A DNA stretch of 64,000 nt, taken from NCBI GenBank assembly GCA_016584305.1, contig JACEEZ010020231.1, forward strand, positions 158,501-222,500, read 5' to 3'. The first letter of the stretch is position 1. The number at the start of each line of letters is the position of its first letter. This document shows, one piece after another, positions 728 through 63,102 of the stretch. A program made the position numbers and the translations under genes. The stretch comes from Chionoecetes opilio. Lineage: Eukaryota > Arthropoda > Malacostraca > Decapoda > Majidae. The notes below the pieces were generated by a model. The model saw only the letters and a program-made list of their open reading frames with translations, was not told the DNA's origin and searched no databases.

Positions 728-1649
728 GTTTACATCTGTTTTTACGGCTGAAATAAGTGCTATTTTATATGCTCTCATGATTATTTTTACCCTTCCGGAT
801 GTTTCTTTTACAATTTTTAGTGATTCTTGTAGTGCTCTTCAATCACTATGTAATTTTAACTCTCCCCATCCGCTGGTCAATGCCATCCTAGAATGGCTTT
901 ATCTGCTCAAGAGGCGAGGCCGGACGGTCAGCTTTTGTTGGGTACCGGCACATGTGGGTGTTGCCGGTAATGAGGAAGCTGATGCCTTGGCAAAATCTGC
1001 AGCTAAAAGACCAGCTCTATCACATTTTGCAGTGCCGGCTACGGACCTACGCTCGGCAATCCATAGATCAGTTCACAACAGTTGGCAAGAACGTTGGATT
1101 ACTATAGGGCAAAATAAACTGCGCACCATCCGCCAAAGTATCGAGGACTGGAGCTACTGCGGTCTCCCGGAGATGGGAGACTGCCTTGGCACGATTGCGT
1201 ATTGGTCACACTTTATATACTCATGGGTTCCTCATGGAGGGGGCCACCCTCCTTACTGTGATGATTGTTTGGTCCCCTTAACTGTGCGGCACTTGCTGGT
1301 CGAGTGTCCCAGTCTAGGGGACCTACGTGTGCAATTTTTGTCCCGGTGTCGCGGGTCGGACGGTGCTTACCGTCTCTCCCTGGCATTGGGAGAGAGGTGT
1401 TTCTCTCCGGGACATGAAGTCCATACATTTATTGAGAAGGCTGGCCTTCTCAACAAGTTATATGTTTTTAATATTAACTTATGATTGTTTTTAATGTACT
1501 CATGTTCTTTTATGTATTTCGTAATTTTCAATATTTTTATTTTATCTTAAATTTAGTTTTTTAGTTTTACTTTACATGCATCTTTTGTAAGCAGGCGTCA
1601 ATAACCCCGCAGTTGCGGCGCCTTAAAACTTTAATCAATCAATCAATCC
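728..1649 (+). mobile_element. 5'-truncated LINE with RNase H domain
   Basis: An open + frame through 1484 encodes an RNase H domain and a C-terminal zinc-knuckle-like region. Readable motifs are TAEISAILYAL, a FSDSCSAL segment, WVPAHVGVAGNEEADALAK (the final RNase H Asp/His block) and a CDDC...HLLVEC pattern. This arrangement is typical of the 3' half of ORF2 in I-group and related LINEs. The 3' untranslated region ends in a short AATC repeat at about 1632-1649, the expected kind of LINE tail. The upstream boundary near 728 is where the hAT-like protein similarity ends. It is a dead 5'-truncated copy; endonuclease and reverse transcriptase are missing. Confidence 0.8.
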
Positions 1650-2145
1650 ACCATCTCTTCTCCTTTTGGCGTCTGTTGACGGCTACGTGAGAGAGAGCTT
1701 TCACGTCGGCAAACCGATTCTTTCAGCTTCTTGTCCAGACCAGCCATCGAACCCCGCCTCCCCTTCTCCCGCTGGGCAAGAAGGAATTCCTTGTCTTCAG
1801 GAATGGTCATCAGAGTGAGGGCGTCGGAGTGGGCGATGTCCAAAAGGTCTGGGAGACTTTCTTGGAAGGTCTTCTGTTTTTCGGCAGGTGTGACTCCAGA
1901 GTTATTCTTGCTTTTGCTCAGGATCTTCCACTTGTCGAAAAGTCCAGTAATCTTCCTCCTCACGCTAGTTTCTGCGATGGTGGGGATCCTAGCTCGTGTC
2001 CAGAAGTCGAGGACCTCTTTTGCAGCCTCAGCTGCACTCTGCTGCACCGTCTTCTTCTCTTCCTTGTGTGCGTAGAAAAATCGTCATAAAACATCTCCAC
2101 GGCTGGGAAGTTTTGCTTCTGTGATAGTAGGAACACTATGGCCAA
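1643..2145 (-). pseudogene. N-terminal part of divergent hAT-like transposase (broken)
   Basis: Two overlapping minus frames (from about 2145 and from 2047) join with one frameshift near 2060. The protein resembles the N-terminal third of the gene at 12695-14905. Both have a hydrophobic start, then a Trp-Lys-rich basic helical region, then a segment with LPDLLDIAHSDAL here and LEDLFDISSADVL there. In both this is followed by an EDKxFL-QRE stretch and a Ser-Met-Ala-Gly motif. The reading ends at a stop just beyond the LINE junction. The central catalytic region of the family is absent from this copy, lost or replaced around the LINE insertion. The function (transposition) is inferred from the sister element. 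Confidence 0.6.
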
Positions 2146-2352
2146 GAAGCCAAACTTCAGTTTGCTTTCTCGTGGTCATGACCTGAGGGCGAAAAGAGGA
2201 AATGTTCAAGATCGATCCGCCACCTCTAAATATCAACCGATTAGCCTGAAACTTTGCACACGACAGTTTCTAAGTACAAGGCAGAATACCACAAAAGTAC
2301 ATGAAAAAATATTGACTTTGAAAAATTACCTCTATGCGCTATTGGCACCCTA

Positions 2353-2762
2353 ATATACACCCAACACCTCCAATAGACTCACACCCCTGCTACCTGGTTA
2401 GCAACAGCCTTCCCGTCAACCATAGGTCGCTGAGCACTGGACACAGGTACGACGGCAGATGGGAAGGGTAGTTGACCTGGGCAGCAGGGGACGATGAAGT
2501 GTACACAGCAGAGGTGGAGAGATAGAGCAACTCCCCGTGTTGCATCGGGAACTCTTCTCCCGGGACAGCCGGCACCAAGCGCCTCGTAACCTCTGCTCCA
2601 AACCAGAGGGTGTCGAGGCTTCATGAGGAAGCAGAGGTCGGGATGTAGCGAAGACCTATACTGGTGATCGAACCAGTCTTTCTCGAATCCACAAACAGGA
2701 AACCAGGGGTTGAAAGAAGGAACTGTTGCTCGAATGCCTGCAGGTGGTGGTTCGCCCTTACA
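2353..2762 (-). repeat. LTR, truncated copy
   Basis: Direct repeat of 3399-3806, ending in CCCTTACA. About 190 bp present in the sister LTR (3206-3398) is missing on the left because the hAT-like element inserted at ATATACAC. The rest should lie on the other side of that element, beyond the window. Confidence 0.75.
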
Positions 2763-3205
2763 GCTCCCCCATCAAGAGTCTACCTACGGTAGACTTGAGA
2801 ACACCGCCTGTTGTAAGAGACATATATACAATACATACATATAAAAAACTAGTGTGAAAGCATCACTGCTCGTTTGAGAGACTACAGGGACTTTGCGTCC
2901 CACAATTTACACGTGGTCCACACTTAGGGAACCACTGTCTGGCAGACGGGAAGGACATGGCATCCTGAACACCCTAAGCTGGCACCACACCGAAAGACTC
3001 GGTTAACCAGCTGAAAGTCTTGCTTAGCGGCTGCTTGCCCACAGCCTGGAGCAAGGGGAGGTTAGAAGGCACATTAGCCCGCACCTAACCCACGCTCGAA
3101 TGAGACGAGCGAAAAAACTGTACACACTGACGCACCACAGCGCTTCCACTACAACACCGCCTTACGGCACACTACTCGGCTCCGGTATCCTGGCAAGGTC
3201 GCCAC

Positions 3206-3806
3206 TGTAAGGGAAACGAGCGCGATTTAATCACAAACTCGCTAGCCCAAGGATTCCAGGATACGCCGAAACTGAGATAGGGGGAGGACCGTAAGGGTGA
3301 TGTAAACACAAGACTTAAAATTGTGGAGATTTACTGGTGTCTCGCTCAAACTACAAGTATACAAGCAACTATGTACAAACAAGTATTTACAATCACGTAT
3401 ATACACCCAACACCTCCAATAGACTCACGCCCCTGCTACCTGGTTGGCAACAGCCTTCCCGTCAACCGTAGATCGCTGAGCACTGGACACAGGGACGACG
3501 GCAGACGGGAAGGGTAGTATACCTGGGCTGCAGGGGACGATGAAATGTACATAGCAGAGGTGGAGAGAGAGCAACTCCCCGTGTTGCGTTGGGAACTCTT
3601 CTCCCAGGACAGCCGGCACCAAGCGCCTCGTAACCTCTGCTCCAAACCAGAGGGTGTTGAGGCTTCATGAGGAAGCAGAGGTCGGGATGTAGCGGAGACC
3701 TATACTGGTGATCGAACCAGTCTTTCTTGAATCCACGAACAGGAAACCAGGGGTTGAAAGAAGGAACTGTTGCTCGAACGCCTGCAGGTGGTGGTTCGCC
3801 CTTACA
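3206..3806 (-). repeat. LTR, complete copy (601 bp)
   Basis: Starts TGTAAGGG and ends CCCTTACA, an 8-bp inverted terminus typical of TG...CA LTR ends. The right-hand 400 bp repeats at 2353-2762 with scattered differences. Confidence 0.75.
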
Positions 3807-3887
3807 GTGGCGATCCTCCAGGCTTATTATGCCAGTGATATATACCACTACCTTGTGAGCTTGAAAAGTATATTCAATCACTCTACC

Positions 3888-7950: not shown

Positions 7951-10150
7951 TTAGTTCGGGAGGTGTCTTGTTATTCTTCTTTTGAAAAGATTTAAGTCAT
8001 AGGAAAGTGGAAAAATAGAAACAGGAAGAGAGTTCCAGAGTTTACCAGTGAAAGGGATGAAAAAGTAAAGATACTGATTAACTCTTGCATTAGGAAGATG
8101 GACAGAATAGGGATGAGAATGAGTAGAAAGTTTTGTGCAGCGAGGCCGCGGGAGGGGGGGAGGCATGCAGTTAGCAAGTTCAGAAGAGCAGTGAGCATGA
8201 AAATAACGGTAGAAGAGAGCAAGAGAAGCAACATTGCGGCGGTGATTTAAAGATTGAAGACAGTCAGTCAGAAGAGAGGAGTTGATGAGACGAAAAGCTT
8301 TTGACTCGACCCTGCTTAGGAGAGCTGTATGAGTGGATCCTCCCCAAACATGTGAGACATACTCCATACATGGGCGGATAAGGCCCCTGTAGAGAGCAAG
8401 CAATTGGGAGGGAGAAAAAAAAGGACGCCGACGCCACAGGACACCTAACTTCTTAGAAGCTGTTTTAGCAAGAGATGAGATGTGAGATTTCCAGTTCAGA
8501 TTTTTAGGAAAGGATAGTCCTGGAATGTTCATTGTAGAAGAAGGAGACAGTTGAGTGTCATTGAAGAAGAGGGGATAGTTATCTGGTAGGTTTTGTCGAG
8601 TAGATAGGTGAAGAAATTGGGTTTTTGAGGCATTGAACAAAACAAGGTTTGCTTTGCCCCAATCAGAAATTATAGAAAGATCAGAAGTTAGGCACTCGGT
8701 GGCATCTCTCCGTGAATCACTTAGTTCCTGTTGAGTTGGACGTCTAATAAACGACGTTGAAAAATGCAGGGTAGAATCATCAGCGTAGGAGTGGATAGGG
8801 CTTTGAGTTAGACTTAGAAGATCATTAATGAATAATAGAAAGAGAGTGGGTGATAGAACAGAACCCTGGGGAACACCACTATTGATAGATTTAGGAGAAG
8901 AACAATGTCTGTCTACAGTAGCTGCAATAGAATGGTTTGAAAGGAAACTTAAGATGAAGGTACAGAGAGAAGGATAGAAAGCGAATGAGGGTAGTTTGGA
9001 AATTAAAGATTTGTGCCAGACTCTATCAAAAGCTTTTGATATTTGTTTGTTTGTTTGTTTGTTTGTTTGTTTTGTTTAGGGGATAATTCCTCAGAGCCAT
9101 AGTGATCTACCGCTGCAGCTTAGTGTTGGCCGAAGCCACCACCCCGGGAGGGGGGTCACAAACCCCCTAGATAGGGGGTTTGTGACCCCGGCTAACACCC
9201 GGTACCCATTCACTGCTGGGTGGACAGGGGCTCGGGTTTTAAGTAAGACCACCCATCTATCTTCGCTCCTCCAGGGGATCGAACCCGGGAGTTCTCGGTT
9301 GTGAGCCGAGCGTGCTAACCACTACACTATGGAGTACTCTGATATGTCAAGGGCAACAGCAAAAGTTTCACCGAAACCCCTAAAGGAGGATGACCAAGAT
9401 TCAGTGAGGAAAGCTAGAAGATCGCCAGTAGATCACCCTTTACGGAAACCGTACTGACGATCAGATAGAAGATTGTGAGCAGATAGATGCTTAAGAATCT
9501 TCTTATTAAGTATAGATTCAAAAACTTTAGAAAGGCAGGAAGTCAAAGCTATAGGACGGTAGTTTGAAGGATTAGAACGGTCACCCTTCCTAGGAACAGG
9601 TTGGATGTGAGCAAACTTCCAGCAAGAAGGAAAGGTGGAAGTAGATAGACAAAGACGGAAAATTTTGACCAGACAGGGTGCAAGCACAGAAGCACAGTTT
9701 TTGAGAACGATAGGAGGGACTCCGTCTGGACCGTAAACCTTCCGAGGATCTAGGCCAGAAAGGGCAAAGAAAACATCATTACGAAGGATCTTAATGACAG
9801 GCATAATATAGTCAGAGGGTGGAGGAGAAGGAGGAACAAGCCCTTCTTCAACCAGAGTGGAATTTTTAGCAAAGGTTTGAGCGAAGAGTTCAGCTTTAGA
9901 AGTAGATGAGGCAGCTGTGGAGCCATCTGGGTGAAGCATAGGAGGGAAAGATGAAGAAGAAAAATTGTTAGAGATGTTATTTGCTAGATGCCAGAAGTCA
10001 CGAGAGGAATTTGATTCAGAAAGATTTTGACATTTTCTATGAATGAAAGAGTTTTTGGTAAGTTGAAGTAAAGATTTGACATGATTACGGGCAGAAATGT
10101 AAAGGGCATGAGTTTCAGGAGATGGATGCTTAAATGTTGTATTGGCAAGT
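7951..10150 (-). pseudogene. LINE ORF2 reverse transcriptase (broken)
   Basis: Two clean minus-strand frames are 9433-10188 and 7951-8640, with a disrupted part between. The first has the RT fingers and palm (GPDGVPPIVLKNCAS, then NPSNYRPIALTSCLSKVFE and RQYGFRKG). The middle retains SYADDST, the catalytic YADD, at 8776-8787. The second has the thumb and C-terminal region (LNWKSHISSLAKTASKKLG, LIRPCMEYVSHVWGG). The ALDISKAFD motif is split by the SINE at 9044-9345. The closest described types are the jockey-like LINEs abundant in decapods; the exact clade was not determined. The N-terminal endonuclease is missing. Confidence 0.8.
9044..9345 (-). mobile_element. tRNA-derived SINE, family A
   Basis: Read on the minus strand it starts at the complement of 9345. 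A-box-like TAGTGTAGTGGTTAGC and B-box-like GGTTCGATCCC mark a tRNA-derived pol III promoter. It ends in a TTTG/CAAA simple repeat at 9044-9075. GATAT flanks both sides, consistent with a short target duplication inside the LINE codons ALDISKAFD. A plus-strand copy is at 17923-18153 and a fragment at 59583-59680. Its body contains a palindrome around CCCCCTAGATAGGGGG. Confidence 0.8.
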
Positions 10151-17895: not shown

Positions 17896-17922
17896 CACCG
17901 GTACTCCGGGTACTTTGGGTAC

Positions 17923-18153
17923 TCCATAGTGTAGTGGTTAGCACGCCCGGTTCACAACCAAGAAATCCCGGGTTCGATCCCCGGGCGGTGCAGAGAAAGA
18001 TGGGAGGTCTCCTTAAAACCCGACCCCCTGTCCACCCAGCAGTGAATGGGTATCGGGTGTTTCTGGAGGGACCACCCTCCACTCGCTTTTTTGCTCTTGT
18101 CCTTATCGTCACCTGGCTTCCTCGAGCCACCACCACCACCAGTACTTGTAGAT
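17923..18153 (+). mobile_element. tRNA-derived SINE, family A
   Basis: The A-box TAGTGTAGTGGTTAGC and B-box GGGTTCGATCCCC lie about 35 bp apart, then a body (CCACCCAGCAGTGAATGGGT) shared in inverse with 9044-9345. The tail region carries CCACCACCACCACC. It is not a functional tRNA: there is no recognisable full cloverleaf and the body continues far beyond. Confidence 0.75.
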
Positions 18154-19721: not shown

Positions 19722-20826
19722 ACACACAAACCTCGTTTTCCCAGACTAATAGGGGGTAGCACTGGTCCGGGAACCGCAAAAGTCCGGGAATCGCAACAGT
19801 CCAGGAATTATCCTAAAAAAAATAAAAAAACGATGCCATTACCCACCCCCGGACGTTTATCCTACTCTAGTATTTACTGTCCGGCAACTGCCAATATCAA
19901 CTACCCCGCCGCGGACTTTACGTCCGCTGAGCATGCTGCCACCTGGCGGGAGGCAGCAGAAAGTGTTCAATAGTCTCAAGAGACGTTCCTGCACCAGGGG
20001 CAGTGGGGGTCAGGGGACTAACGGAGGTGGTGCAGGTGAACCGTGAGTGTCGTGTGCCCAAATGTAAACAATACGACCGCTGAGCAATAACCTGAGCATG
20101 CTGCCACCTGGCGGGAGGCAGCAGAAAGTATTCAATAGTCTGAAGAGACGTTCCTGCACCAGGGGCAGTGGGGGTCAGGGGACTAACGGAGGCAGTGCAG
20201 GTGAACTGTGAGTGTCGTGTGCCCAACTGTAAACAATACGACCGCTGAGCATGCTGCCACCTGGCGGGAGGCAGCAGAAAGTGTTCAATAGTCTCAAGAG
20301 ACGTTCCTGCACCAGGGGCAGTGGGGGTCAGGGGACTAACGGAGGCTGTGCTGGTGAACTGTGAGTGTCGTGTGCCCAAATGTAAACAATACGACCGCTG
20401 AGCATGCTGCCACCTGGCGGGAGGCAACAGAAGGAGTTCAATAGTCTCTAGAGACATTCCTGCACCAGGGGCAGTGGGGGTCAGGGGACTAACGGAGGCC
20501 GTGCAGGTGAACCGTGAGTGTCGTGTGTCCAAATGTAAACAATACGACCGCTGAGGATGCTGCCACCTGGCGGGAGGCAGCAGAAAGCGTTCAATAGTCT
20601 CAGAGATGTTTCTGTACCAGGGGCAGTGGGAGTCAGGGGACTGACGGAGGCCGTGCAGGTGAAACATGAGTGTCGTGTGCCCAAATGTAAACAATACGAC
20701 CGCTGAGCAATAACCTGAGCATGCTGCCACCTGGCGGGAGGCGTGAACACTGACCAGGGATGACAGGAGATGCTCAGACCGGCGGACAACTTTGTCAATT
20801 TACGAACAGGACCAGGCGTTTCAACG

Positions 20827-32805: not shown

Positions 32806-33633
32806 ACTCTCACGGATGGCTGGAGTGTACTGATTCTTCGAGAGTGGGCGGTGAGCCACCGCTACCAATATCTAGCCACGTGTATACATTTCAGTGGCGA
32901 GAATCTAATGGGCAGCAGCCAATGACTGCGCTTCTAACCAAGGTCCTAATTATAAGGTGCAAATGCTTAATATTACTGGAAATGTTAATTCAAATTATCC
33001 CCAGTACTTATCATTTACTTAAATTACCTTAATTATACCCATTACCATTTAAATTATATATATACATCCCTATTCACCCCTATGACGAGCAGACAATAAC
33101 TCCCTCACTAGGGGGGGGGGGGGGAAACAAACCACCACTCTACCAATTATGAGAGGGTGTTTGGTGGATAATTTCCACACCAGGTACGTTTTTTCTGTAC
33201 AGCCTATTTCTGTACAATATGTGATGAAGTTTGACGTTTTTAGGCCAGAATGGCAAAATTGAGGTTTTATAGAATATAACACTAGCAGACAGCCTTAGAC
33301 TCAAATGTTACATTTATTTATCATGTTTAGATATAACTAACACATTTTTAGCATGGTTCAATGTCATAACTTGTGTTTTAAGCCACAGAAATGCCTTATT
33401 TTACCACATTTTGCCCAAAAATCGCTTTCAGTAAGAAAGTCACTCAAACTTTGATAGCCTCCTATATATCTATTATTTCAGATAAAGTAACCAGAATAGG
33501 TAAAAAATATCCTTATAGTCTTTTCATCAAAACACACTTCATATTCATTATTCGGTGCAGTATATGGTGACAGTGAGGGTAAATATGAACAAAGGTAACC
33601 CCTACCCTGAACCTACATCGCCAATATGCTAAT
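32806..33633. other. No gene recognised; G run
   Basis: Unassigned sequence with a run of 12 or more G at about 33111-33123 and A-T-rich stretches. Confidence 0.5.
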
Positions 33634-33819
33634 GTGATGAAGACAACACATGAGACATACATTTACCATCAATCATCTCAAGCCACAACAGACCGAAAAG
33701 AGTCACACATTCAGGGCATGATGAAATTATTGAAGATAAAGGGTCTCCTCTCTGTTGGTGCTTCTCCAACGCTGCAAAATTTTGTGACAAAAGAGGTCAT
33801 GTCCGACGACATCAGGAAT
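33634..33819 (+). pseudogene. XPG/FEN1-like family gene B, first surviving piece
   Basis: The frame encodes MKTTHETYIYHQSSQATTDR, then a GMMKLLKIKGLLSVG segment and LQNFVTKEVMSDDIRN, ending exactly at the AAT target duplication of the inserted element. The continuation is at 37361. This N-terminal region aligns by eye with the corresponding region of the inserted element's own gene (LTTVLSRKVVPDKMVDAL). Both therefore belong to one uncharacterised family. No known domain in this part. The start codon is uncertain; upstream is non-coding. Confidence 0.55.
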
Positions 33820-34429
33820 TAGTAGGGTCACTTAGGGCGATTCGCTTCACATTAGGTGAAGGAAGTATTTTGAGGGTCTTATCCTAAGCATTTTGTGCCG
33901 CTGAATCCGAAAATCGTAGTTGGGTCACTCGTTAGCGGTAAGTTTTCGCGCAATTTGCAATTTGGCAATTTGGCAATAAAATTGGCAATTACAAATTGCA
34001 GAATGAGAACCAGACGTCGTAGAGACCTCGTTTTGGACTCAAATTGAAGCTTATTAAGAGTGCATAAAATGTTATTTAGTACTCCGTGGTTGTATCTGTT
34101 CGCATTACTGAACTATAATGGAAATTAGAGATAAGTGGAAAAAAATGGAAAAAAATATAAAAGGAATAATTTTGGCCTTAATTTCACATCAAAAGTCATG
34201 AAATGTTTCTGGCTGTATCTGTTCTCATAAAGGCACTACCGTCTGATTAATAGAAAATGGTAACTTTTCTCTGACTGTCCCCTCATGGTCGTATTTTATG
34301 ACATACGGTAATGAAATTTCGCAAATAAATGTAAAATTTCATTGGCTATAATTTTAGAAATTAGCTATAAACCCGTAAATAAAATAAATTCATTTATTAT
34401 ATCGCACATTTTCCTTCCCAGGTCTCGCA

Positions 34430-36624
34430 ATGAAATCGTGTGTCATTTGCGGTGCAACTAACGGAGATGTGGTCCTTCGACCTCGGACGCCCAAGGAGGA
34501 TGTTCGGAGTATGCTGGCCAAGTGAGCTTCGAAAGGCGAATTCGTAGAGGCCCACAGGAGGTCCTCTAGAAGGGACGATTGGTCGTGGCACCGACCAGTG
34601 CATTGCTAAAATCCAGCCCCACAAATTCGTCCTGGGTCCTGGGTCCTGGGTCCCACTGGGTCGTTCGTAAGTCGTTGGTACCTTTCACGTCCCTTGGCTG
34701 CGACCATGCCTTGGAACAGGTGAACCGGACTCTGAAAGGTGACGGTGGGCTTGTAGGGATCACGAAAAATCCCTCGACGAGGACCAAGTTCTTCTTGATC
34801 CAAGACGACTCTTGGCAATCAAGGCCAAATCATTCGGAAGTTCTGCTAACGGCATCAAAGCACCACAAGGACAGCCCAGCGGTCACGAAGAAGACACACG
34901 AGATGACCAAAGAGGTTGCTGGTCTTCTTCGCCAGCATAACCCCTTCACATCGCGAGAAAGCCCAACTCACCACCGTCCTTTCCCGCAAGGTTGTTCCAG
35001 ATAAGATGGTGGACGCACTGACAAGAATCGAGGAGACTGGCAAGGAAGCTCTCTTGAAGTACAAAGAGGGAAGGATCAGACTGCGCAGCAAAGTCCATGG
35101 GAGGTCCTGCATCGTCAGCCTACCAATACATTCAAAACGCTGGGCAAGAAAGCCAAAGTTTCAATCGGAGGGAAGCAGGTGATTGTCACGGGATCCTCAG
35201 ACTTCACTCGGCGCCTGCTGCCTCGCCCTCCAACTCGACAGCAGTCTGGACCTTCGCACCATCATCTCCAACTATGAGCTCTCCCTGTTCCCTCTTGCCC
35301 TCTTTGACGACCAAGGCCACCCGCGGGTCACGACAAAAGTGCCCTTCTCAGGGTTCTGGAGAAGATGAACGCGGCGGTCTCCACGGCCTCGCAAACCCCT
35401 TCATCCTCTCGCGTGCTGGTCCTCGACGGGATGGCTATCCTTCAGCAGCACCCCGTTTCCGGCTCAGCAAACTTTAAGGACCTGGTTGGATCCCTCCTGC
35501 AGAGAGTTGCCCAACTGGGTGTTGGCTACGGGGAGTTGCACCTTGTCTTTGACAGGTACGACATCGGCGCGTCCCTCAAAGACAAGACGAGGGAACAGCG
35601 AGCCCGAGGTGGAGATACGATATCGACATCCAAGCAGCGACGAGGATCAAAGCTGGAATGACCATGGCTAACATCTTGTCCACCAAAAGCAACAAGACTG
35701 CTATGACCTCTCTCATTGCCTCCCAATCTAGCACCATTCATGGGGATTACGCGTCGTCTGCGCGTGGCGCGACAAAGCCGTGGCAACTTCTGGACCGGAC
35801 GGAACCAAGTTCGCTTCAGAACAAGAGGAAGCGGACGCTAAGATGATATATCATCTCTCCATGCTCGACAAAGATGTGGAGGCAACCGTAGTTTCTTCCC
35901 GGACACTGACGTCCTCGTCCTCCTCCTCCGACACTTCCCCAAGATACCTCCCAACACGTGCCTCCAGCTTGGCAAGCGACTTTCAACGTTCAGCTCATCC
36001 ACGATGAACTGGGCTCTCACGCGGATGTGATCACGTCCTTCCATGCTCTGACTGGTTGCGACACCACTTGCGCCCTCTTCAGGAAAGGCAAGTTGCAAGC
36101 TTGGCCTGTGTTCCAGGCGGCCGACCAGGCAACCCTCGACGCTTTGGTACACTCCGAAGCCCTGGTCCGCTGACGCAAGAGAGCCTGGATGTGCTGTGCC
36201 GATTCGTGAGCAGAATTTACGGATATACCTGCTCTCTGCCGCAGGCGAGGTGGAACGGCACTTCAGAAGAAGAAGGTTGGAGCAGCACTGGCCCCTCCGA
36301 CAGTCAACGCCAACACCCAGCACATTATGCGAGCCCAGCTACAGGCCGTCGTCTGGGAGGGGGCTGTGAAGAAGGAGTTGGTGACCCTCGACCCGACCAG
36401 TACGGCTACGGACCAAACCTGGTGCCTATCCCTTCCACCCTGCCTCCCGCCCCGCAAAGTATCATGGATGGGATGCAGTGCGGATGCAAGACGAACTGCT
36501 CGACCATCGCTGCCGCTGTCAACGCCTGCAGACTCCTTGTTCGGAGCTTTGAGATTGCTCCCCCGAGATGTGCATCAACGACGAGGAAGATGGGCATGAG
36601 GACGTCGATGGCGTAGACGACTAG
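34430..36624 (+). pseudogene. XPG/FEN1-like nuclease-family protein encoded by the TIR element (broken)
   Basis: It starts MKSCVICGATNGDVVL after a possible acceptor (CCTTCCCAG). Frames alternate with several frameshifts. In order: a DHALEQVNRTLKGDGGLVGI stretch; LTTVLSRKVVPDKM; LVLDGMAILQQHP (Asp at 35425-35427); LHLVFDRYDIGASL with basic KTREQR (Asp at 35551-35553); QEEADAKMIYHLSML (Glu-Glu-Ala-Asp at 35825-35836); PDTDVLVLLLRHFPK (35902-35910); HALTGCDTTCALFRKG (Asp at 36060-36062); and a PPAP...CGCKTNCS Cys-rich tail to the stop at 36622-36624. The spacing mimics the five acidic regions of FEN1/XPG nucleases. I recognise this as a multicopy uncharacterised family of aquatic invertebrates. 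Nuclease activity and a role in transposition are inferences. Confidence 0.6.
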
Positions 36625-36761
36625 ATATTTCGATTTTTTTCAACTTGTGAATGCTCGCTATCGCAAGTAAGGGATTTTTTTTGTGTTCTAATTGTTATTT
36701 TCCAAAATACGCGGAGGAGACTCGTTTCGTTGTTTGAAATTTTGTGTTCTGGATTAATACT

Positions 36762-36850
36762 CGGGTCACTTCGGGCGGAAAAAAGGCTTTCTGCTTCACC
36801 TTAGGTGAAGGAAGTATTTTTGAGGGTCTTATCCTAAGCATTTTTCAGTT
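36762..36850 (+). repeat. Internal direct copy of the left TIR
   Basis: CTCGGGTCACTTCGGGCGG followed by CACCTTAGGTGAAGGAAGTA and GAGGGTCTTATCCTAAGCAT repeats the left terminus (33824-33905). With the right TIR at 37060-37360 it delimits a 600-bp MITE-like unit inside the element's right end. Confidence 0.7.
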
Positions 36851-37360
36851 GAAATACCCTGTTCTACGCAATAATTGTACCCACCCTTGCACAAATTCGT
36901 TAATTAAATGTGTCCTAAGAACAATTGTTTTGTTATTTTACTTTTTTTACTAATTAAAATTTAGTTTTTAATTATTAGAACTCAGGCTTTAAGGCCAAAA
37001 TTATTCCTTTTATATTTTTCCCAATTTTTTTCCACTTATCTCTAATTTCCATTATAGATCAGTAATCCGAACAGATACAACCACGGAGTACTCAATAACA
37101 TTTTATGCACTCTTAATAAGCTTCAATTTGAGTCCAAAACGAGGTCTCTACGACGTCTGGTTCTCATTCTGCAATTTGTAATTGCCAATTTTATTGCCAA
37201 ATTGCCAAATTGCAAATTGCGCGAAAACTTACCGCTAACGAGTGACCCAACTACGATTTTCGGATTCAGCGGCACAAAATGCTTAGGATAAGACCCTCAA
37301 AATACTTCCTTCACCTAAGGTGAAGCGAAAGCCTTTTTTCCGCCCTAAGTGACCCGACTA

Positions 37361-37712
37361 AATGACATGCTGAATGCTTTCACGAAAGGGAAAGAAAAGT
37401 ACCTGACATTCAGGAAAGAGAAGTTTCTCCACAAAATGTCACGAATCAGTAACTGCATTCAGCGTTCAAGTTTGAAAAGAATGTTAACTATCCATAATAA
37501 ACCACAGAAGACAATCAGAAAGACAGTGAAGGAGATGAATTTAACAGAGAGAAGCATTGAAATTGCTCGGGAGCGTGGCCTCTCGACTGAACACCTGCTA
37601 AAATATGATGTTGTTCCATCCCCACTGTTGGTTGATGTTGAAGAAATGATGACAAAGCCAGCAAAGTGTCAGTTATCAAGGAGTTGGAGGTACATTTCCA
37701 ACCTGGTTTTTC
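37361..37712 (+). pseudogene. XPG/FEN1-like family gene B, second piece
   Basis: Continues in frame from 33819 as RN-DMLNAFTKGKEKYLTFRK when the insert and one AAT are ignored. It goes on with VKEMNLTERSIEIARERGLS, the TEHLLKYDVVPSPLL stretch and MTKPAK. A frameshift near 37665 leads to VIKELEVHFQP, after which the LINE begins. The EMNLTERSI..ARERGLSTEHLLKYDVVPSPL pattern is the region that precedes the nuclease-like domain in this family (family knowledge, recalled). Confidence 0.6.
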
Positions 37713-37739
37713 CTTGAAGGCGCCATGGCGAGCAGACGT

Positions 37740-44763: not shown

Positions 44764-45937
44764 CCTCCACAACCACGAGTGCACCAAGCACCTCCACAAC
44801 CACGAGTGCACCAAGCACCTCCACAACCACGAGTGCACCAAGCACCTCCACAACCACGAGTGCACCAAGCACCTCCACAACCACGAGTGCACCAAGCACC
44901 TCCACAACCACGAGTGCACCAAGCACCTCCACAACCACGAGTGCACCAAGCACCTCCACAACCATGAGCGCACTAAGCACCTCCACAACCACAAGTGCAC
45001 CAAGCACCTCCACAACCATGAGTGCACTAAGCACCTCCACAACCACGAGTGCACCAAGCACCTCCACAACCATGAGTGCACTAAGCACCTCCACAACCAC
45101 GAGTGCACCAAGCACCTCCACAACCATGAGCGCACCAAGCACCTCCACAACCACGAGTGCACCAAGCACCTCCACAACCACGAGTGCACTAAGCACCTCC
45201 ACAACCACGAGTGCACTAAGCACCTCCACAACCACGAGTGCACCAAGCACCTCCACAACCATGAGCGCACCAAGCACCTCCACAACCATGAGCGCACCAA
45301 GCACCTCCACAACCATGAGCGCACCAAGCACCTCCACAACCATGAGCGCACCAAGCACCTCCACAACTATGAGTGCACCAAGCACCTCCACAACCATGAG
45401 CGCACCAAGCACCTCCACAACCATGAGCGCACCAAGCACCTCCACAACCATGAGTGCACCAAGCACCTCCACAACCATGAGCGCACCAAGCACCTCCACA
45501 ACCATGAGTGCACCAAGCACCTCCACAACCATGAGTGCACCAAGCACCTCCACAACCATGAGCGCACTAAGCACCTCCACAACCATGAGTGCACTAAACA
45601 CCTCCACAACCATGAGCGCACCAAGCACCTCCACAACCATGAGCGCACCAAGCACCTCCACAACCGTGAGTGCACCAAGCACCTCCACAACCATGAGTGC
45701 ACTAAGCACCTCCACAACCATGAGTGCACCAAGCACCTCCACAACCACGAGCGCACCAAGCACCTCCACAACCATGAGTGCACCAAGCACCTCCACAACC
45801 ACGAGCGCACCAAGCACCTCCACAACCAGGAGCGCACCAAGCACCTCCACAACCACGAGCGCACCAAGCACCTCCACAACCATGAGCGCACCAAGCACCT
45901 CCACAACCATGAGTGCACCAAGTACCTCCACAACTAT
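44764..45937. repeat. 27-bp minisatellite, about 43 units
   Basis: The unit CACCAAGCACCTCCACAACC plus 'acgagtg' is repeated with few substitutions (ACGAG/ATGAG, GTGCACC/GCGCACC, ACCAAG/ACTAAG). The unit length is divisible by three and lacks stops in several frames. Long Thr/Ser/Pro (+) and Leu/Val-rich (-) readings therefore result on both strands. The variants are clustered: the first seven units are identical, and later ACGAG and ATGAG alternate. Confidence 0.95.
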
Positions 45938-47302
45938 GGGCCGATTTCTTAGTCGTCCCCTTTCGTTGGGGTCCTTACCAATGAGCGGCCATTTCCATCC
46001 CCAACAACAAATCCGATTTCTTAGTCGTCTTTTGCGCCGCTGTTGGTTTGTATCGATACCATAGATTGGAACCTTTGGTAACACCGAGTTGGGCAGCCTA
46101 GTGCCTCCCCAACGATGCTTACTAATGCAATTATTTATCAAATACAGGTTGAAGTTCCCAAACTCGTCAACCTCGGGACCAGCGCCGAGCCGAGTAATGG
46201 AATTTTCCGACTTTTAGAACGTAGATATATTAAGGGGAAAAAAAGCATGAAATGGTCAATTTTCTCAGAAATAGTTAACACATTGTTCTTCCTTTACTTT
46301 TCACTTCCACCAGTAGGTGTTCCTGGACGTTTGGGAGCCATAATACCAATAACAGACCTGTAGAAGTACATATAGAAGTATATACTATATAGAAGTACAC
46401 AAAATAACAGTGTACACAACTCTACAGTCACAACACCACTGAACAATAACAACAAACAAATCGGCGGGAGAAACCAAGCGGCCTAGTGTGGTGGCACCTA
46501 GCGGCCGACCCAGCAACTATGCGCCGGGTTTTGGGTGTTCTGCCGTGTTTTGGAAAATCCGGAACCATAGCCGAGTTTTGGGTGTTGCCGAGTCTTGGGA
46601 TGCCGAGTTTGGGAACTTCAACCTGTACCACTAATTCCTACTTCCAGTTGGTTATATTTTCTTCTGAAAAAGATGTACAAAATTAACAGATAATGCATCA
46701 ACACGTTTGAGGGTTATAATGAAAGAAGAAGAAAAGTTTTAAAAGAACTTGGACGACCGCGGTGAATGCACGTCACCAGCTGTCAAGCAGACGATATATT
46801 TTTCACGGCCATCTGCCTTAATTAATTATTTTATCTGTCATGCTATATTTTTCCATACTTCAGTAATATTGTAGGTACATATGCGTAATATATACAAAAG
46901 GGGTTATAGGTGAACTTGTTATAAATAAAAGTAATAATTATAAATAAAAATAAAATTGTATATAATTTAATATAATATAATTTATATAATCAAATATAAC
47001 ACAATATAATTTATAAATTAAAGTAGAATATTATAAATAATCGTTGTTATTATTTATATGTGTGTAAATAGTAATTATTTACTGACTTTGGATGGAATGT
47101 TTACATTTTCCGCCACTCAGGCATACCAACAGTACCGAATCTGCCGTCTTTTTTTCGTTGGGATCCTTACCATGTTGGGGAGCTCCGAGTTCAGAGAACA
47201 GCGACTGAGAAATCGGATCTCTTTCTTAGTAAGGACTGTTACCAGGTTGGTAAGGCTTTTGGTTAGGGAGCTTACCAAAGGACTGAGAAATCGGCCCTAT
47301 GA
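45938..47302. other. Spacer between the two minisatellites with inverted flanks
   Basis: GGCCGATTTCTTAGTCGTCC and GTTGGGGTCCTTACCAATG just right of array 1 recur inverted or rearranged just left of array 2 (AAATCGGATCTCTTTCTTAG; GACTGAGAAATCGGCCCTAT; TCGTTGGGATCCTTACCATG). This suggests that arrays and flanks belong to one palindromic or duplicated unit. 46626-47050 is A-T-rich without features. Confidence 0.5.
46145..46625. mobile_element. Tigger MITE (CAGGTTGAAGTTCCC family)
   Basis: TA|CAGGTTGAAGTTCCCAAACTC starts at 46145 and GAGTTTGGGAACTTCAACCTG|TA ends at 46625: TIRs of about 21 bp with TA duplication. 481 bp, non-coding. Confidence 0.85.
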
Positions 47303-48171
47303 AAGCACCAAGCAACTCCACAACCACGAGCGCACCAAGCACCTCCACAACCACGAGCACACCAAGCACCTCCACAACTATGAGCGCACTAAGCACCTCC
47401 ACAACCACGAGCACACCAAGCACCTCCACAATTATGAGCGCACTAAGCACCTCCACAACCACGAGCACACCAAGCACCTCCACAACTATGAGAGCACCAA
47501 GCAACTCCACAACTATGAGAGCACCAAGCACCTCCACAACTATGAGAGCACCAAGCACCTCCACAACTATGAGAGCACTAAGCACATCCACAACCACGAG
47601 AGCACCTCCACAACCACGAGCACACCAAGCACCTCCACAACTATGAGAGCACCAAGCAACTCCACAACCACAAGAGCACCAAGCACCTCCACAACCACGA
47701 GAGCACCAAGCACCTCCACAACTATGAGAGCACCAAGCACCTCCACAACTACAAGAGCACCAAGCACCTCCACAACCTCGAGCACACCAAGCACCTCCAC
47801 AACCACGAGCGCACCAAGCACCTCCACAACCACGAGCGCACCAAGCACCTCCACAACTACGAGCGCACCAAGCACCTCCACAACCACGAGCGCACCAAGC
47901 ACCTCCACAACCACGAGGGCATCAAGCACCTCCACAATCACGAGCGCACTAAGCACCTCCACAACCACGAGCACACCAAGCACCTCCACAACCACGCACT
48001 CACCAAACACCTCAACAAATACGCACTCACCAAGCACCTTTACAACCACGCACTCACCAAGCACCTCTACAACCACGGACTCACCAAGCACCTCCATCAC
48101 CGTGTGAGCACCAAGCACCTCCATCACCATGATAGCACCAAGATCCTCCACAACAACGTACTCACCAAGCA
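47303..48171. repeat. 27-bp minisatellite, second array, about 32 units, more diverged
   Basis: Same unit as array 1 (AGCACCTCCACAACCACGAG plus 'cgcacca') with more variants: GAGCACACC, AACTATGAGAG and, at the end, ACGCACTCACC. The right end degenerates through CACCATGATAGCACCAAGAT to about 48171. Confidence 0.9.
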
Positions 48172-48226
48172 CAATAAAGCTGAGTAAAAAAATTAATTCC
48201 GTAGGCTTATTATTATATTATATATA

Positions 48227-56293: not shown

Positions 56294-58449
56294 AAAGACT
56301 ACTGTATACTGGACTTGCTACTCGTGCCCCGCGCCAAACCGCCCATGGCCATTGGAGGCCAGTTTTGCGATTCCTGACATTTTTGAACATCACTCCCATC
56401 TCCCTTCCTACGGTTTATCAGTATAAATGATATACCGTTATCTTCGGAAATGTTTGTTCTGTAATATTATCAAATAAAGAACGGCAACATACACTAAAGA
56501 AATGTCATTATGAGAGAGTGAAGAAGTACACACAAACCTCGTTTTCCCGGACTAATTAGGGGGAGCACTGGTCCGGGAACCGCAAAAGTCCGAGAATCGC
56601 AACAGTCCGATGCCATTACCCACCCCCGGACGTTTATCCTACTCTAGTATTTACTGTCCGGCAACCACCAATATCAACTACCCCGCCGCAGACTTTTACG
56701 TCCGCTGAGCATGCTGCCACCTCCTGGCGGGAGGCAGCAGAAAGTGTTCAATAATCTCCAGAGACGTTCCTGCACCAGGGGCAGTGGAGGTCAGGGGACT
56801 AACGGAAGCTGTGCAGGTGAACCGTGATTGTCGTGTGCCCAAATGTAAACAATACGACCGCTGAGCATGCTGCCACCTGGCGGGAGGCAGCAGAAAGTAT
56901 TCAATAGTCTCAAGAGACGTTCCTGCACCAGGGGCAGTGGGGGTCAGGGGACTAACGGAGGCTGTGCAGGTGAACCGTGAGTGTCGTGTGCCCAAATGTA
57001 AACAATACAACCGCTGAGCATGCTGCCACCTGGTGGGAGGCAGCAGAAAGTGTTCAATAGTCTCAAGAGACGTTCCAGCACCAGGGGCAGTGGGGGTCAG
57101 GGGACTAACGGAGGCGGTGCAGGTGAACCGTGAGTGTCGTGTGTTCAAATGTAAACAATACATCCGCTGAGCATGCTGCCACCTGGTGGGAGGCAGCAGA
57201 AAGTGTTCAATAGTCTCAGAGATGTTCTTGCACCAGGGCCAGTGGGAGTCAGGGGACTAACGGAGGCCGTGCAGGTGAACTGTGAGTGTCGTGTGCCTAA
57301 ATGTAAACAATACGACCGCTGAGCATGCTGCCACCTGGCGGAAGGCGCGGACACTGACCAGGGGTGACAGGAGACGCTCGAAAAAAAAAAAAAAAAAAAA
57401 AAAAAATTGTCCGGGACTGACATATCCCCGGACCTCGGATTTTGTCCGGCAAATCCGATATCCGGGAAATGGAGATCCGGGAAATCGAGGTTTGTGTGTA
57501 TGCATGAACATGAACAATATTCACTTAAACTCTTTGCCATTTAATATTTTGCGAGAAAACTTTTTACATGAAACATTGCAATAGAAGTGGATTTTCATTA
57601 GCTTTCCATTGATATATTTCGTTTTCTGATAAATGAATTAGAACCATGCATAAATTAGCGTTAACTAAAAATATAACATCATCAATCGGATCGGCAAGTA
57701 AAAAAAGTGTTCCATGAATACAGTAGATTATGGTTTATCAGTATAAATGATACACTGTTATCCTCGTAAATGTTTGTTCTATAATATTATCAAATAAAAA
57801 ACTGTGAAATACACTAAAGAAATGCCATTATGAGACTGAAGAAATATGCATGAACTTAATATTCACTTAACTCTTCACCATTTCATATTTTGCGTGAAAA
57901 CTTTTTACATGAAACATATTAATAAAAGCGGAATTTTATTAGCTTTCCATTGCTATATTTCGTTTTCTGATAAATAAAATAGAACCATGCATAAATTAGC
58001 ATTAACTAAAACAATTACATCATCAATCGAGTAATTTTCCCGATTGATGAGGTTATTTATTTAGTTAACGCTAATTTATGAATAGTACTAATTCATTTAT
58101 CAGAAAACTAAATATATCAATGTAAAGCTAATAACATTCCGCTTCTATTTATGTGTTTCATGTAAAAAAAATTGTCGCAAAATATTTAATGGCGAAGAGT
58201 TTAAGTGAATATTAAGTTCATGTATATTTCTTCACTCTCACATAATGGCATTTCTTTAGTATATTTTATTGTTTTATATTTGATAATATTATAGAACAAA
58301 CATTTACGAAGATAATGGTATATCATTTATACTGATAAACCATAGGAAGGGAGATGGGAGTGATGTTCGAAAATGTCAGGAATCGCAAAACTGGCCTCCA
58401 CTGGAAATAGCCCAAACTGAGTAGCAAGTCTAGTATACAGTAGTCTTTA
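56294..58449. mobile_element. Foldback DNA element, copy B, interrupted by a Tigger MITE
   Basis: AAAGACTACTGTATACTGGA (56294) and the inverse to TAGTCTTT (58448) match copy A at 3888-5057. The flanks GCCCCACC and GCCACACC are 8-bp duplications with one mismatch. The MITE 56529-57498 interrupts the sequence GAAGAA-TA-TGCATGAAC. Confidence 0.75.
56529..57498. mobile_element. Tigger MITE with LINE-derived minisatellite, copy 3
   Basis: TA|CACACAAACCTCGTTTTCCC at 56529 and GAAATCGAGGTTTGTGTG|TA to 57498. About four tandem units (CTGAGCATGCTGCCACC at about 56704, 56861, 57015 and 57168) and a partial fifth near 57318. An A run at 57379-57406. Confidence 0.8.
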
Positions 58450-62436: not shown

Positions 62437-63102
62437 CACACAACCCTCATTTTCCCGGACTAATAGGGGGGAGCACTGGTCCGGGAACCGCAACAGTCCG
62501 AGGCCATTACCCACCCCCGGACGTTTATCCTACTCTAGTATTTACTGTCCGGCAACCGCCAATATCAACTACCACGGCGCGGACTTTTATGTCCGCTGAG
62601 CATGCTGCCACCTCCTGGCGGGAGGCAGCAGAAAGTGTTCAATAGTCTCAAGAGACATTCCTGCACCAGGGCAGTGGGGGTCAGGGGACTAACAGAGGCG
62701 GTGCAGGTGAACCGTGAGTGTCGTGTGCCCAAATGTAAACAATACGACCGCTCAGCATGCTGCCACCTGGTGGGAGGCAGCAGAAAGTGTTCAATAGTCT
62801 CAGAGACGTTCCTGCACCAGGGATAGTGGGGGTCAGGAAGACTGACGGAGGTGGTGCAGGTGAACCGTGAGTGTCGTGTGCCCAAATGTAAACAATACGA
62901 CCGCTGAGCATGCTGCCACTTGGCGGGAGGCGCAGACACTGACCAGGGGTGACAGGAGACGCTCGGACCGCCGGACAACTTTATCAATTTACGGACTGGA
63001 CCAGGCATTTGTCTGGGACTCTGACATATCGCCGGACCTCGGATTTTGTCCGGCAAATACGATATCCGGGAAATGGAGGTCCAGGAAAAAGAGGGTTGTG
63101 TG
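62437..63102. mobile_element. Tigger MITE with LINE-derived minisatellite, copy 4
   Basis: TA|CACACAACCCTCATTTTCCC at 62437 and GAAAAAGAGGGTTGTGTG|TA to 63102. Two full tandem units (CATGCTGCCACC at 62602, 62756 and 62909) and the 'gccggacctcggattttgtccgg' subterminal region. Confidence 0.8.

Follow-up and report, generated by a model that had tools for sequence, protein, structure and literature searches.

Within a 64,000-nucleotide stretch of Chionoecetes opilio DNA (contig JACEEZ010020231.1 of assembly GCA_016584305.1; the whole stretch is here termed the window), the segment at positions 33820-37360 is, with a probability of about 0.9, a non-autonomous member of a young family of cut-and-paste DNA transposons that has undergone an internal deletion, the family being best filed as Academ and within it as the lineage AcademX. 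An initial annotation, made from the letters alone, had read this segment as a transposon of an uncharacterised class that encodes an XPG/FEN1-like nuclease instead of a transposase. Comparison with other copies in the genome resolves the apparent transposase-less transposon as an internal deletion in an element of a known kind, the full-length form of which carries a DDE transposase and the nuclease in the same gene.

Boundaries of the element and its target-site duplications

The span of the element was confirmed, the coordinates of the initial annotation proving exact. Its inverted arms (33841-34181 and 36989-37329) extend over 341 nt at 98% complementarity, with the outermost 21 nt pairing at 95%; the terminal inverted repeats first described at 280-300 bp are therefore present, but longer. 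The terminal sequences of the element are TAGTAGGGTCACTT and AAGTGACCCGACTA, and both copies of the predicted 3-bp AAT duplication stand beside them. Fusing the flanks with a single AAT restores a 194-codon open frame spanning the insertion site, and 237 nt of the fused flanks are matched across the junction, at 87-90% identity, by three other places in the same genome that constitute empty sites. Both the ends of the element and the empty sites thus support its boundaries and the 3-bp duplication. The interrupted sequence (window 33589-33819 and 37364-37717) is itself a repeated open frame with relatives elsewhere in the genome, for which Pfam returned weak matches only (best E 0.014).

We searched the 1.94-Gb genome assembly for further copies. 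Matches to the left repeat were identical across all 362 bp in 38 of the 40 scored, the window copy included, these being the best 40 of 1658 candidates; the right-end search scored 40 of 751 candidates, 30 of which became loci and were examined, and the protein search scored 42 of 14098. Copy numbers are consequently lower bounds, and the left-end sample is biased towards perfect left repeats. Duplications were sought in 23 copies, comprising the 19 of 30 left-end loci with right ends retrieved together with the window copy, L031, L032 and L033. An exact right end was present in 16 of the 23, and each of these 16 is flanked by a 3-bp duplication, against a shuffled mean of 1.5; lengths of 2-12 bp were tested, and a 4-bp duplication was found in none of the 16. 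One copy situated in a TC repeat (L023) matches over 5 bp as well as 3 bp.

Four more copies with slightly altered right ends show 3 bp by eye, namely L002, L018 and L019, which apparently represent one duplicated site (TTA), and L028, which shares its site with L001 (ACC). The duplication that the initial annotation had proposed to look for in other copies is thus seen in 20 of 23; L024 showed none, and in L012 and L027 the right end was not found at the predicted place. The duplicated sequence is largely A/T-rich and not fixed, including ACC, ATC, ATG, TCA, AGA, CTA, TCT and TAG. A further candidate, at G000:C19805:34112-38020 (its ends being L093 and L094), was rejected as an independent insertion into this target: across 562 bases, its ends show the window's element on a corrupted contig with homopolymers grossly stretched, so that the assembly contains the window's insertion twice. 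A plasmid search gave no DNA match to the element, and none of the 63 pattern matches found among viral contigs is a relative.

The full-length copy and its protein

The sole full-length copy seen, L033, measures 6120 bp, has inverted repeats of about 370 bp and contains one gene. It includes all of the window copy's sequence except the filler TCCTGGGTCCTGGGTCCTGGGTCC at the window's deletion junction, plus 2.6 kb that the window copy lacks. The deleted sequence encodes an N-terminal region with motifs that resemble zinc fingers by eye, together with the transposase acids D359 and D527. The claim of a nuclease in place of a transposase is thereby overturned for the family. Among the outcomes that the initial annotation had set against itself was a DDE transposase in full-length members with the nuclease gene as host DNA; the transposase is indeed there, yet the nuclease, far from being host DNA, forms another domain of that protein.

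To characterise the protein we took the majority sequence of 30 loci and joined its frames to form the query. The search was limited to proteins of 0.55-1.75 times the query length, a range that shuts out short relatives with the nuclease or the transposase alone, and returned 21 homologues: three at 82-88% identity, including P0001 (1396 aa), and a further 18 at 23-33%, of which three are named from corals or anemones. The value of 88% for the joined query against P0001 lies below the 96.2% of a frameshift-tolerant reading because at least one stretch of the joined protein is wrongly framed. The layout of the protein, of about 1400 aa in P0001, comprises N-terminal zinc-finger-like motifs, a DDE transposase, a FEN1/EXO1/XPG-like nuclease and a CxC tail. 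Columns invariant in the alignment include D756, E760, D997, D1039, Y1041, K1048, R1052, K1087, A1133, D1134, D1156 and D1158.

For the transposase, D359 is kept in 18/18, D527 in 20/20 (the row of P0013 being poorly aligned around this residue) and E760 in 21/21 homologue rows with letters. The predicted fold is an RNase H-like DDE core in which a long helical insertion precedes the last E. Its best matches in model comparison are DDE enzymes (P element, Hermes, Transib and RAG1), at 7-10% identity in the aligned parts; Foldseek found nothing at E<=0.001 for the transposase half, and only a second aligner separated DDE enzymes from others. For the nuclease, D997, D1039, K1048, R1052, D1134, D1156 and D1158 are invariant in 21/21 homologues, and E1131, E1132 and D1209 are conserved in at least 90%. 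The fold is predicted to be of the FEN1/EXO1/XPG type with active-site acids in matching order, which bears out the XPG/FEN1-like assignment; the series LDGMA, VFDRYD, EEAD, DTDV and GCDTT and the CxC tail on which it was based are present in the window, spread over several frames.

Sequence profiles were far less informative. Pfam searches of single open frames from the window and the loci gave nothing usable because the gene is broken across frames, and XPG_N and XPG_I matched neither the window pieces, the locus pieces nor any of the 21 homologues, one of which touched 5_3_exonuc_N (E 0.049). DUF6589, a family of unknown function, was found in 10 of the 21 homologues (best E 1.2e-12; only E 0.086 for P0001 itself) and TCR/CXC in three at E <= 0.1; no helicase occurred among the eight Pfam families found across them. 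A sequence search of the PDB gave no significant match, only fold comparison being successful. Pfam thus gives neither enzyme of the pair a name, and predicted folds place both. A second, distinct gene of the same DDE plus XPG type (best match P0021, E 1e-65) lies at about 853-3552 of L035 (G000:C16245), with a truncated left end on one side and another copy of the window's family on the other.

Read through against P0001, the window copy covers residues 740-1396 with 94.7% identity, interrupted by 14 frameshifts and one stop (Table 1). Its only transposase remnant is the E760 block, the codon of which lies at 34714. As two of the three catalytic acids are missing, no working transposase is expected from this copy.

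Table 1. Features of the transposon copy, in window coordinates.
Feature	Position	Strand	Basis
Target-site duplication AAT, left copy	33817..33819	none	
Left terminal inverted repeat, outermost TAGTAGGGTCACTT	33820..34181	+	arm comparison; genome matches
First coding block remnant, MKSCVICG..., cysteine-containing start	34430..34629	+	frame translation; alignment to L033
Deletion junction, 24 bp of repeated filler replacing ~2.6 kb	34630..34653	none	alignment to L033; deletion mapping
C-terminal part of DDE+XPG protein, P0001 740-1396 + stop	34654..36624	+	read-through against P0001
XPG/FEN1/EXO1-like nuclease domain (~P0001 966-1320)	35331..36395	+	predicted fold, alignment; end points estimated from model range
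Nuclease acid codons	35425 (D997), 35551 (D1039), 35834 (D1134), 35902 (D1156), 36060 (D1209)		
CxC cysteine-rich C-terminal tail	36452..36624	+	homologue alignment; Pfam in homologues
Internal inverted copy of terminal sequence	36758..36844	+	arm comparison; copy comparison
Right terminal inverted repeat	36989..37360	-	
Target-site duplication AAT, right copy	37361..37363	none	

Internal deletions and the terminal unit

Deletion was mapped in 23 copies; L018 is the same site as L002, leaving 22 sites for analysis. Among the left-end loci, L005, L009, L014 and L025 had no assigned junction, as the contig ended or the locus lacked a second segment; L019 duplicates the site of L002 and L028 that of L001, L011 is the window copy, and L021, L030 and L022 are the places of L032, L031 and the full-length L033, respectively. 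Relative to one 6.1-kb parent form, every one of the 22 sites has an internal deletion of its own, of 1648-3603 bp, with short repeated filler at some of the junctions. Internal deletions with filler of this sort are what aborted repair of the post-excision gap would be expected to leave in cut-and-paste elements.

The deletions of this left-end sample are lopsided. Left tracts (median 593, range 366-2582) are shorter than right tracts (median 2555, range 1163-3880; Wilcoxon p ~1e-4); of the 22 sites, 21 have lost at least one DDE acid and 19 retain the start of the nuclease. Loss of DDE acids with retention of the nuclease occurs at 18 of the 22, where 20,000 uniform placements give a mean of 7.8 and a maximum of 18. 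In the right-end sample of 30 loci, the right tract is about 2 kb or more in 21, the nuclease region is cut or lost in seven and two are solo units of 600 bp. We therefore rejected the proposition that deletion copies always retain the nuclease; its retention is a bias at most and not a rule. Among the best-scoring 40 loci of the protein search, some of the nuclease core was matched in 39, all three DDE acids were covered in five, 31 gave no match over the first or the second acid (D1 or D2), and none had D1 and D2 without the nuclease; an absent protein match over a residue does not prove its loss, as frameshifts can hide parts.

The right end of the window copy forms a 603-bp unit (36758-37360) with the terminal sequence repeated in inverted orientation at its inner boundary, and this unit occurs alone elsewhere in the genome. 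The internal terminal copy was considered as a nested insertion and rejected, since L031, L032 and L033 carry it at the corresponding position and it so belongs to the family. One solo unit, L077, has a 3-bp duplication of its own (GTA), which implies that the family has a form resembling a miniature inverted-repeat transposable element (MITE) too. The flanks of another, L074, form a 200-bp inverted repeat around it, which may be a fold-back artefact of assembly.

Probable placement within Academ

Three tested features, namely the 3-bp duplication, the DDE transposase and the nuclease, fit the published descriptions of Academ and AcademX, and it is on these three features that the placement rests. 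PIF/Harbinger elements make 3-bp TWA duplications, a rule broken here by duplications such as ACC, ATC, ATG, TCA and AGA, and Kolobok elements make TTAA duplications, at odds with the lack of any 4-bp duplication in the exact-ended copies; both were rejected. The enzymes of the P element, hAT (Hermes), Transib and RAG1 have in common with our family, by model comparison, the RNase H-like DDE core and the helical insertion before the last E. They are not known to have an attached nuclease domain, and they make duplications of other lengths. The nuclease shares with FEN1, EXO1 and XPG the predicted fold, the order of acids and the conserved K and R after the second acid, and differs in being unmatched by the Pfam XPG models and in its position behind the DDE domain of a transposon protein.

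AcademX elements encode an XPG-type nuclease, and a limited literature search found no paper on an Academ XPG domain. Academ is counted among the superfamilies with DDD/E transposases (PMC9587614), and its duplication length is given as 3 bp (PMC5199201). The lineage AcademX derives from Repbase (Kojima 2020, as cited in PMC10045372); as presented in PMC10045372, AcademX makes duplications of 3-4 bp and AcademH of 9-10 bp, and the author suggests that these lengths relate to the nuclease and the helicase that they respectively encode. By these descriptions AcademX, with a nuclease, short duplications and a DDD/E transposase, shows no difference from the window family, although the window copy itself lacks most of the transposase. 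A lineage of this kind being already in print, the idea of an uncharacterised class finds no support. AcademH belongs to the same superfamily, but its helicase and longer duplications contrast with the nuclease and 3 bp found here, and none of the 16 exact-ended copies has a duplication of 9-10 bp. In bivalves, 100 curated Academ elements have a mean size of 5565 bp (PMC10294476), not far from the 6.1 kb of the parent form. KolobokE and KolobokP, as characterised in PMC9587614, likewise combine a DDD/E transposase with an accessory nuclease and likewise have a terminal unit that exists alone; their nucleases are of other types (lambda-exonuclease-like and His-Me finger), and KolobokP has direct terminal repeats.

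Competing explanations and a possible role for the nuclease

It could be argued that the family is extinct and that its frameshifts are genuine decay. Reading through L033 requires 27 frameshifts, the majority reading still has 13, and certain indels are common to several copies. Yet L033 contains no in-frame stop in 1358 codons, long open frames without stops (781 and 765 aa) exist among the copies, and the left repeats are identical in nearly all matches scored. Furthermore, distinct indel events outnumber substitutions in two of three well-covered coding bins (42 vs 10, 52 vs 25 and 54 vs 58), most of them being 1-bp singletons, an excess unlike ordinary decay; the corresponding values in two left-end bins are 9 vs 11 and 26 vs 22. 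The second assembly copy of the window's own insertion is also visibly corrupted at homopolymers. We infer that much of the frame breakage is assembly error. Extinction is thus unlikely, and as far as the sequences indicate the family may be active.

Three further explanations were weighed. That the segment is host DNA whose inverted repeat is unrelated or due to chance has virtually no probability: we found no point in its favor, and the long arms at 98%, the exact 3-bp duplications, the empty sites and the many copies all contradict it. A new class of transposon with the XPG/FEN1-like protein as its sole mobility enzyme would account for the window copy, without D359 and D527, and for the 31 of 40 best-scoring loci that have no match over D1 or D2, some of which frameshifts could hide. 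It is nevertheless highly improbable, given individual deletions at 22 mapped sites against a single parent form that encodes DDE acids conserved in the homologues. Alternatively, the nuclease may be a passenger domain, the DDE part alone mobilizing the element and the XPG-like part serving another role such as repair of the excision site. The gene-free foldback unit of about 600 bp has moved too, so the gene is dispensable in cis, and the seven right-end loci with a cut or lost nuclease region point the same way. Against this, five nuclease acids are invariant in all 21 homologues found within the length limits of that search, every one of which retains the E760 block of the transposase although 18 share no more than 23-33% identity with the query, and the author of PMC10045372 suggests a relation between the duplication lengths of AcademX and AcademH and the encoded nuclease and helicase; a passenger nuclease seems rather improbable.

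For an internally deleted Academ copy such as that in the window, the DDE domain of an intact protein, supplied in trans, would cut and join the 3' ends of the transposon, and the XPG-like nuclease would act on the 5' strand or on flaps, trimming or nicking them as the element is excised or joined. Post-excision gaps would then be repaired from the sister chromatid, aborted repair yielding internal deletions like the window's. It is tempting to speculate, by analogy with TnsA, that the nuclease is a separate-strand cutter of the transpososome, with DDE making the 3' ends and XPG the 5' cut or flap, and that it shapes repair at the ends. We regard this as a long shot; if true, it would explain the lopsided left-end-sample deletions, with short left tracts, long right tracts, DDE acids lost and the nuclease kept. 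The family is young and multi-copy and includes natural copies that lack the transposase and retain the nuclease; these could help to test the role of the nuclease in transposons of this kind.

Other features of the window

A 153-bp tandem repeat unit, seemingly the same one each time, occurs in three separate arrays (19919-20709, 56697-57346 and 62593-62936), and a 27-bp unit forms two arrays (44764-45938 and 47305-48172), each open in more than one frame. Two tRNA-Val(CAC)-like sequences, at 9264-9337 (-) and 17919-17992 (+), have modest Rfam scores and are perhaps tRNA-derived repeats.
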